A stretch of 52,625 nucleotides of DNA. It comes from Archaeoglobi archaeon. GTDB taxonomy: Archaea > Halobacteriota > Archaeoglobi > Archaeoglobales > Archaeoglobaceae. The notes under the pieces were generated by a model. It worked only from the letters and a program-made list of their open reading frames with translations, ran no database searches and had not been told where the DNA came from. The first letter of the stretch is position 1. Every line of letters starts with the position of its first letter. Position numbers and translations under genes: made by a program. Positions 15,790-18,376 of the stretch are shown piece by piece. The stretch lies in the NCBI GenBank assembly GCA_029259345.1, contig JAPDIX010000034.1, positions 1 through 52,625 on the forward strand, in the 5' to 3' direction.

Positions 15790-15809
15790 CATGTTCAATT
15801 TAGAACATG
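15790..15809. promoter_or_regulatory. Perfect inverted repeat CATGTTC-N6-GAACATG over the start codon of the hydroxyacyl-CoA dehydrogenase gene
   Basis: Read directly; the right arm contains the ATG at 15807. Confidence 0.5.
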
Positions 15810-16919
15810 CTAAGGGTGGGGGTTGTAGGGGCAGGAACGATGGGCGCTGCGATAGCCGCTCTTTTTGCCAACGCTGACTATGACGTGGTTCTTGTTGACG
15901 TAAGTGAGGGAGCCCTGAAGAAGGCTAAGGAAAGGCATGAGGGGGAGATTTTGAGGGAACTTATGGAGGCTGGCTTAAAGAAGAGGGATGATCTGGTTTC
16001 GAAAATAAAATATATCTTGGATATAAAGGACTTGGAAAACTGCTCCTTTGTCGTTGAAGCAATTATTGAAAAGCTCCCCGTAAAAATCGAGCTTTTCGAA
16101 AAGCTTGAGCATATCTTGTCTGAGGACTGCATAATCGCGACCAACACCTCATCATTTAAACCCTCCGAGCTTGCTGTAAAGTTGAAAAGACCAGATAGGT
16201 TCACTTTGTTCCACTTTTCCAATCCTCCCATACTGAGAGAGATTGTAGAGGTCGGAGGAGAGACACTGGCTGAGGAATATATGTCTAAGGTGATTGAAAT
16301 TGTAAAAAGCATAGGGAAAGAGCCCGTCGTGCTGAAAAAAGATAGCAGAGGACACGTATTCAACAGGTTTCTCTGTGCTGCCGTCGCAGCTATAGGTTGG
16401 GACGTGGGAAAATTCTCGCCACCACAAGTTGATGCAGCGGTAAAAAGCCTTGGTTCACCTGTAGGCTTTTTTGAATTGATTGACTACATCGGGATAGACG
16501 TCCTTCTGATGGTTCAGGACAGCCTTATAGAGGCTCATGGTGATAGATTTGAGCTTTCAAAGGGTTTCAGATGGCTGCTTGAAAGGATGGTTGAGTGGGA
16601 CAAACTGGGTAAAAAGAGTGGGGAGGGATTTTACAGGTGGATAAACGGCAGTGCTGCAATTCCTGAAGCTGAACCAGCAGATATCCTTCCAATGGCGGCC
16701 GCAACGGTAAATGAAGCTCTTAGAGAAATTGAAGAGGGTTTAGCTGATAGAGATACCGTGAACAGAGCCTACAGTCTCGCACTTGGCTCACCTGCGGGGG
16801 TGATAGATATTGCAGAAATGCTCGGCTACGCGACAATCCTTGATGTGCTGGATAAAAAATATGGGGAGACGGGGGCGGAGACCTTCAAACCCTGTGAGAT
16901 GCTAAGGAGGATGGTATGA
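15807..16919 (+). CDS. 3-hydroxyacyl-CoA dehydrogenase
   Basis: VGVVGAGTMGAAIAALFA Rossmann; EAIIEKLPVKIELF; NTSSFKPSELA; HFSNPPILREIVEV; C-terminal HCDH domain repeats. Confidence 0.92.
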   Translation: MLRVGVVGAGTMGAAIAALFANADYDVVLVDVSEGALKKAKERHEGEILRELMEAGLKKRDDLVSKIKYILDIKDLENCSFVVEAIIEKLPVKIELFEKLEHILSEDCIIATNTSSFKPSELAVKLKRPDRFTLFHFSNPPILREIVEVGGETLAEEYMSKVIEIVKSIGKEPVVLKKDSRGHVFNRFLCAAVAAIGWDVGKFSPPQVDAAVKSLGSPVGFFELIDYIGIDVLLMVQDSLIEAHGDRFELSKGFRWLLERMVEWDKLGKKSGEGFYRWINGSAAIPEAEPADILPMAAATVNEALREIEEGLADRDTVNRAYSLALGSPAGVIDIAEMLGYATILDVLDKKYGETGAETFKPCEMLRRMV

Positions 16920-18376
16920 GGGAGATAATCTTCAACGGGGATAAGGTTGAAATTTACGACTTTCCGGATGAAGTTGACGTAATCTACCCTCCCGAACCAG
17001 TCTCCACATCTAAACCAGCCCATGAGATTGTAAAAAAGGCGATAGATGATGCAGAGATAAAAGTGAGCAAGAACTCCAAAGTGGTCATAGCCTTTGATGA
17101 CGTAAGTGTTCCTCTACCCCTCCCTCAAACCGATCCAAGAAGGCTCATGGTTAAAGAGGTTTTGAGAAAGTTGAAAGGTATTGGTAAAGACCAGGTGACG
17201 CTTGTATGCGCTACGGGAATGCACAGGAAATGCAGTAATGCGGAACTCAGGCAAATGCTCGGGGAAGTGGCATCAGCTTACAGAGTGGTGAACCATGACT
17301 GCAGGGATGTTGTATCGCTTGGAGAAACCGAAAGTGGATACGTCGTTGAGATAAACAGGTATGCTGCCGAATCGGATGTGATAATCTATCTGAGCGTACC
17401 ATTCCTCCCGATGAACGGAGGATGGAAGTCAATTGCTGTTGGGCTGGGGAGTTACACCTGCATCAGGCAGCATCATCTCCCTCAAGTCCTGAAAAAATCC
17501 TCATATATAAATCCGCATTCAGATATGCACAGAATTATAGAGGAGATTGGCAGGCATGTTGCTGAGCGAATTCCTGTCGTTCATGTTGATGCTGTGTTGA
17601 ACAACAGCTTTTACAGAGGATTTGTCAGCAAAGCATGGGGAAATGTCAGGGGAAACGATAAACTTGGCCAGAAGCTTTTGATGTCTTTATCCAACATGAT
17701 GCCCTCACACATAAAATCAGCAGTAAGGAGAAGATACAGAGCAGGTTACGAGGTTGCCTACGTTGCAGCAGGCGAGGTTGATGAAGTGCATCCTGAAGTG
17801 CTCCAGAGAGTTTACGAGCACAGAGGATTGAAAGTCGGGGAGAAGTACGATGCCCTCATATTCGGACTGCCGAACATGTCCCCTTACAGCGTAAATTCGG
17901 AGCTTAACCCGATTCTGTTCCACACAATGGTAAGGGGATATCTGTGCAACATGTTTGAGAAAATGTTAAGGAAGAGAGCATTTTTTGTTGTTCAGAATCC
18001 TGTTTATGAGGTTTTTGATGAAAAGCAGCATCCCGCTTACCGGGAATTTTACTACAAATACATTTCCAAGGGAAAGACGGACTTTGATGGACTTGAGAGT
18101 GCCGAGAGGCAGCTTGTTGAAAATTCAAAGCTCATGAATGCCTATGGGAATGGACTTGCATATCATCCCGCCCATGCCGTGATTGCCTACTACTGGGGTG
18201 CTCTGGGCATGGAAAGACTTGAAAAGGTTGTAGTTGCTGGCAGCAAGTCCCCAGCTTTAAAACCACTTGGATTCGAGTCGGCTAAGAACATGGATGAGGC
18301 GATAAAAATTTTAAAGGAAATGGGTTGCGGGAAGATTGCTTACGTGAGCATTCCACCCGTATTTTTCACCTATTGA
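16916..18376 (+). CDS. LarA-like (nickel-dependent lactate racemase superfamily, DUF2088) protein
   Basis: FDDVSVPLPLP, CATGMHRKCSNAELRQMLG, HDCRD, GGWKSIAVGLGSYTCIRQHH. Confidence 0.8.
   Translation: MREIIFNGDKVEIYDFPDEVDVIYPPEPVSTSKPAHEIVKKAIDDAEIKVSKNSKVVIAFDDVSVPLPLPQTDPRRLMVKEVLRKLKGIGKDQVTLVCATGMHRKCSNAELRQMLGEVASAYRVVNHDCRDVVSLGETESGYVVEINRYAAESDVIIYLSVPFLPMNGGWKSIAVGLGSYTCIRQHHLPQVLKKSSYINPHSDMHRIIEEIGRHVAERIPVVHVDAVLNNSFYRGFVSKAWGNVRGNDKLGQKLLMSLSNMMPSHIKSAVRRRYRAGYEVAYVAAGEVDEVHPEVLQRVYEHRGLKVGEKYDALIFGLPNMSPYSVNSELNPILFHTMVRGYLCNMFEKMLRKRAFFVVQNPVYEVFDEKQHPAYREFYYKYISKGKTDFDGLESAERQLVENSKLMNAYGNGLAYHPAHAVIAYYWGALGMERLEKVVVAGSKSPALKPLGFESAKNMDEAIKILKEMGCGKIAYVSIPPVFFTY

Follow-up and report, generated by a model that had tools for sequence, protein, structure and literature searches.

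How does an enzyme of the LarA type operate when one of its two catalytic histidines is missing? The lactate and malate racemases of this family carry two such residues (H108 and H174 in LarA numbering), whereas a protein encoded by an Archaeoglobi archaeon has H103 for the first and no equivalent of the second. Its gene lies in a stretch of 52,625 nucleotides (contig JAPDIX010000034.1, hereafter the window), where it overlaps the gene for a 3-hydroxyacyl-CoA dehydrogenase (3HCDH; Table 1). The missing H174 is not new to this window, as homologues without it are known in groups 14, 15 and 17 of the family. LarAH groups without the H174 and K298 equivalents have already been reported, with the suggestion of another hydride-mediated reaction (PMC7583248), and groups 14 and 15 are described as devoid of H174, with Asn in its place in group 17 (PMC12611868). 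Cryo-EM has yielded structures of LarA_Bw and of an NPN-bound LarA_Sp (PMC12611868), but both LarAH14 of Frankia (PMC7583248, Table 1) and LarA_Sp (PMC12611868) were inactive on the substrates tested. Structures are thus available for H174-less LarAs but activities are not, and the puzzle is how a one-histidine site works. What is new here is the identification of the single-His LarA_Sp as the nearest solved relative, an invariant Tyr and HxxH motif in the C-domain, a co-inherited pairing with a dehydrogenase that recurs in a distant Firmicute, and the presence of larB in ten of ten genomes whose only LarA is of the H174-less type.

The reading frame is uninterrupted and its 486-residue product matches the Pfam Lar_N domain (PF09861) well above the curated cut-off (5.7e-31, 107.7 bits against 23.3). 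The NCBIfam model NF052592 (LarAH_14_15_16, covering LarAH14/15/16) is matched over its full length (3.1e-109, 365.7 bits; cut-off 740). These two matches, together with the invariant equivalents of D72, H108, K184 and H200, exclude chance. Among solved structures, LarA_Sp (PDB 9q2u) is matched at 9.6e-29, and a profile of the family aligns with it over the whole length (2e-95). An AlphaFold model built from 66 sequences is predicted with a pLDDT of 93 and a pTM of 0.92; when it was searched with Foldseek the best match was 9q3k, also LarA_Sp, with a TM-score of 0.79, against 0.59-0.67 for canonical lactate racemases. A quick tree, in which some long branches meet and the deep joins are unsure, separates the canonical LarAs from the window protein, its relatives and LarA_Sp. 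Judged by sequence and predicted fold, the gene is a true LarA homologue of the H174-less type, an archaeal variant of a branch that has already been described and whose function is uncharacterised.

Table 1 Coordinates of the dehydrogenase-LarA locus in the window
Feature	Position	Strand	Basis
3-Hydroxyacyl-CoA dehydrogenase, 370 aa, upstream partner	15807..16919	+	Pfam 3HCDH_N 1.5e-50, 3HCDH 2e-29
AAGGAGG, ribosome-binding site of LarA-like gene, within the end of the dehydrogenase gene	16904..16910	+	Sequence read
ATGA, 4-bp overlap of dehydrogenase stop (TGA) and LarA-like start (ATG)	16916..16919	+	Sequence read
LarA homologue without His174 equivalent (P0001, 486 aa)	16916..18376	+	Lar_N, NF052592, 9q2u, AlphaFold/Foldseek
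D62 codon (LarA D72)	17099..17101	+	Invariant in alignment
V65 codon, at LarA R75 position	17108..17110	+	Alignment; Arg never here in family
H103 codon (LarA H108, retained catalytic His; in GMHRK)	17222..17224	+	Invariant in alignment
Shortened loop D154-K171, where LarA carries H174	17375..17428	+	Residue counts in alignment
K171 codon (LarA K184, cofactor-tethering Lys; in GGWK)	17426..17428	+	Invariant in alignment
H187 codon (LarA H200, nickel ligand; K171+16)	17474..17476	+	Invariant in alignment
Y324 codon (LarA_Sp Tyr307)	17885..17887	+	Invariant in family; aligned with 9q2u Y307
H417-P-A-H420 codons; H420 (LarA_Sp His401) candidate substitute acid/base	18164..18175	+	Invariant; alignment

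The nearest solved relatives, by both sequence and fold, are the single-His proteins of group 17, LarA_Sp (9q2u, 9q3k) and LarA_Bw (9q3j). These share with the window protein the absence of His174, the NPN-site Lys, the nickel His, the H108 and D72 equivalents, and a C-domain with a Tyr, an NP and an HPxH motif. However, LarA_Sp has a loop of full length, an Asn in place of His174 and a Lys at the R75 position; its His306 corresponds to Pro323 in the window protein, and the genomic context is also different. Filing under group 17 was rejected, since the invariant Asn at the 174 position is absent and the loop is shortened. Groups 14 and 15 also lack H174, keep the NPN Lys and His and have no known activity, but filing under NF052592 was rejected because the score, though from a full-length match, is below the 740-bit cut-off, as are the scores of the nearer bacterial relatives tested. 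The LarAs of Lactiplantibacillus plantarum and Isosphaera pallida, which are racemases of lactate and short-chain 2-hydroxy acids, have the same N-domain fold and agree with the window protein at D72, H108, K184 and H200; they differ in that it lacks the H174, R75 and K298 equivalents, and the C-domain is poorly alignable.

The residues that are kept and lost were read from an alignment that combined 78 relatives, recovered by scanning genome contigs, with canonical LarAs taken from other loci and with segments of 9q2u and 2yjg. The D72, H108, K184 and H200 equivalents are invariant across the 78 relatives wherever a row covers them, so that the GMHRK His, the GGWK Lys and the His 16 residues beyond it, picked out in the initial annotation, hold as H103, K171 and H187. 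The same annotation placed a Val where LarA has H174, and here the picture is divided. Aligned with the solved and canonical LarAs, the window protein indeed has no His at the 174 position, and the residue ten before K171 is V161; but an in-place exchange of H174 for Val161 was rejected, as it is the loop itself that is shortened. The segment from D154 to K171 spans 18-19 residues in the family, where the canonical LarAs and LarA_Sp have 22, the H174-bearing loop being 3-4 residues shorter in 79 related proteins, and where a His does occur within it (16 relatives) it is never at a conserved place. The initial annotation did not notice that the R75 and K298 equivalents of the two-His racemase type are also absent, being V65 and S328 in the window protein, with Ser at the latter position in most of the family. 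In LarA_Ip the Arg binds the carboxylate of the substrate, lactate (PMC12611868), and its loss suggests, though as a suggestion only, a substrate without a free carboxylate, for which a thioester would fit. Alternatively, as this Arg contacts the NPN phosphate too, cofactor binding may be altered in its absence.

What might then take the place of H174? In the C-domain both histidines of the H417-x-x-H420 motif are invariant in all 76 rows with residues there, and they align with H398 and H401 of 9q2u; Y324 and the N331-P332 pair are likewise invariant, each over 77 rows. In LarA_Sp the ligand density adjoins His115, His306, Tyr307 and His401 (PMC12611868). As H420 and Y324 align with the ligand-site His401 and Tyr307, a second acid/base contributed by the C-domain is plausible, with H420, perhaps together with Y324 or H417, as the putative substitute. 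This invariant Tyr and HxxH set offers a first lead on the one-histidine puzzle, as a candidate replacement for the missing residue.

A second lead comes from the neighbouring genes, as dehydrogenase and CoA-transferase partners narrow the likely substrates to hydroxyacyl compounds. The 3HCDH partner of the window contains NTSS, FHFSNP, IVEV and FNRF, which we take to be the motifs expected of an active enzyme of this family, and from its sequence it looks catalytically intact. The overlap of the two genes had been read as a link between them, and this has held up: the pair is co-inherited, with the 4-bp overlap, in four of four Archaeoglobaceae, namely the window and three relatives with 91% (L050), 73% (L051) and 66% (L052) identity. 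In the last of these (genome G170) the pair is kept although its surroundings differ; the liv transporters, leuA and accC near the window pair were dropped as substrate clues for that reason. Orthologues of the dehydrogenase (69% or more) are limited to these 4 of 55 family genomes, in which other copies reach 61% or less. On a distant branch of the tree, the Firmicute Desulfovirgula (L073) has the two genes in reversed order, with the LarA-like gene first and a 3HCDH 29 bp downstream. Elsewhere an unrelated dehydrogenase occupies the same place, as in relatives of the Desulfobacterota type, which have a short-chain dehydrogenase (SDR) no more than 60 bp away and in the same orientation (10 loci). 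Those of Actinomycetota have a CaiB CoA-transferase within 100 bp (5 loci) with an AMP-binding ligase nearby. The neighbours of the nearer relatives therefore point to hydroxyacyl metabolism. Within the library of papers that was searched, there was none on LarA homologues with Archaeoglobus, nor on NPN with 3-hydroxyacyl-CoA dehydrogenase.

The reading that we prefer, with a probability of about 0.5, is that of an NPN enzyme which serves the neighbouring dehydrogenase by inverting the stereocentre of a hydroxyacyl compound and draws its second acid/base from the C-domain. It builds on the homology, the residues kept and lost, the fold and the pairing. In such an enzyme K171 would hold the NPN cofactor and H187 would ligate the nickel, and the hydroxyacyl substrate, either a hydroxy acid or a CoA thioester, would give up a hydride from its carbinol carbon. 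H103 would serve as one acid/base, and H420, perhaps with Y324 or H417, would replace the other. The stereocentre would in this way be racemised or epimerised, making the substrate usable by the co-translated, stereospecific and NAD-dependent 3-hydroxyacyl-CoA dehydrogenase. Against this reading, some relatives adjoin sugar kinases or a PLP enzyme, such that the substrate may differ between clades, and no member of an H174-less group has a known activity. A narrower version, in which the clade acts on hydroxyacyl-CoA thioesters and not on free 2-hydroxy acids, with an HxxH His of the C-domain as second acid/base, is put forward only tentatively and is in itself rather unlikely. If true, it would represent a second way to build an NPN racemase site and, to our knowledge, would place an NPN enzyme in acyl-CoA metabolism for the first time. 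The archaeal pair, with its dehydrogenase partner, provides a starting point for a coupled NADH assay.

The initial annotation favoured a one-sided hydride reaction, in which H103 would be the sole base and a single enantiomer would be handled, whether by a one-direction racemase or in a non-inverting hydride reaction. In its favour, no member of the family has an H174 or K298 equivalent, and the possibility has been stated for groups of this kind (PMC7583248, PMC12611868), the authors of the LarA_Sp study proposing a one-direction enzyme together with a carbohydrate-phosphate ligand (PMC12611868). However, the C-domain has the invariant HxxH and Tyr, and since the last His of the motif lines up with a His at the LarA_Sp ligand site, a second acid/base may exist; at equilibrium, too, racemases have no preferred direction. 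One-sidedness is thus not established by the missing His, and we hold it to be somewhat unlikely.

An improbable alternative is that the protein has its place in the metabolism of sugar acids or carbohydrates, the role put forward for LarA_Sp and LarA_Bw; the partner of the 3HCDH family would then act on a polyol acid in place of an acyl-CoA. Such a role would suit the glycolytic neighbours of these nearest solved relatives and the density modelled as a sugar phosphate (PMC12611868), as well as the Chloroflexota relatives, five of which lie beside a pfkB kinase (three others are beside a PLP enzyme), but the closer clade is partnered by 3HCDH, SDR and CaiB CoA-transferase and not by sugar enzymes.

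The preferred reading also requires the cofactor. The source genome (1.49 Mb, 80% complete) carries larB, two larC-type genes and larE, so that all the maturation genes for which a search had been advised are found. Their presence was nevertheless rejected as a weak test of NPN use, because the genome also encodes a canonical LarA (C45) and larB is close to universal in Archaeoglobaceae, where 51 of 55 genomes have it above cut-off. More telling are the host genomes of the relatives. Above-cut-off larB occurs in 43 of 50, and in the ten where the H174-less protein is the sole Lar_N match, at positions consistent with those of the loci, larB is found in all, with larC and larE in eight each. 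The baseline rate of larB, in the phylum of one of those ten hosts, is 74 of 150 genomes, and Fisher tests against it give p = 0.0016 (10/10) and 2.6e-6 (43/50), in a comparison that is made between different phyla and ignores relatedness. For reference, larBCE occur in the absence of larA in about 15% of genomes (PMC11796402). K171 most likely carries NPN, with nickel ligated by H187, although for this particular protein we infer the loading. That it is a degenerate LarA which no longer uses NPN and has taken another role is improbable: neither R75 nor K298 has an equivalent and larB does not track the LarA-like gene within Archaeoglobaceae, but the residues matching the cofactor Lys, the nickel His, H108 and D72 do not vary over many phyla, larB is present in all ten genomes whose only LarA is of the H174-less type, and LarA_Sp, also devoid of H174 and the Arg, has been shown with NPN bound (PMC12611868).

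Several further observations concern the wider distribution of these genes. The two LarC-type (Ni_insertion) genes of the source genome are at C14:533-1654 and C20:23758-24915, and four related Archaeoglobaceae have one each. Many of the 51 larB-bearing Archaeoglobaceae are without a LarA matched by the window protein, and NPN may serve other proteins there. In Peptococcaceae BRH_c4a (L127:6989-10067) a distant LarA-like gene (24%) encodes a protein without the cofactor Lys (GGMTGCG) and immediately precedes larB and larC, with an acetoacetyl-CoA-synthetase-like gene further down. Tandem arrangements are also found: in a member of the Dehalococcoidales (L108:4838-7576) 33 bp separate an H174-less LarA from one that retains the H174 His, and at another locus (L116) two LarA-like genes follow one another. 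Finally, Archaeoglobaceae (L090, L095, L113 and L045) have a further H174-less LarA that is more remote (about 33% identical) and in three genomes adjoins, on the opposite strand, genes resembling 3-isopropylmalate dehydratase and dehydrogenase (named by eye).
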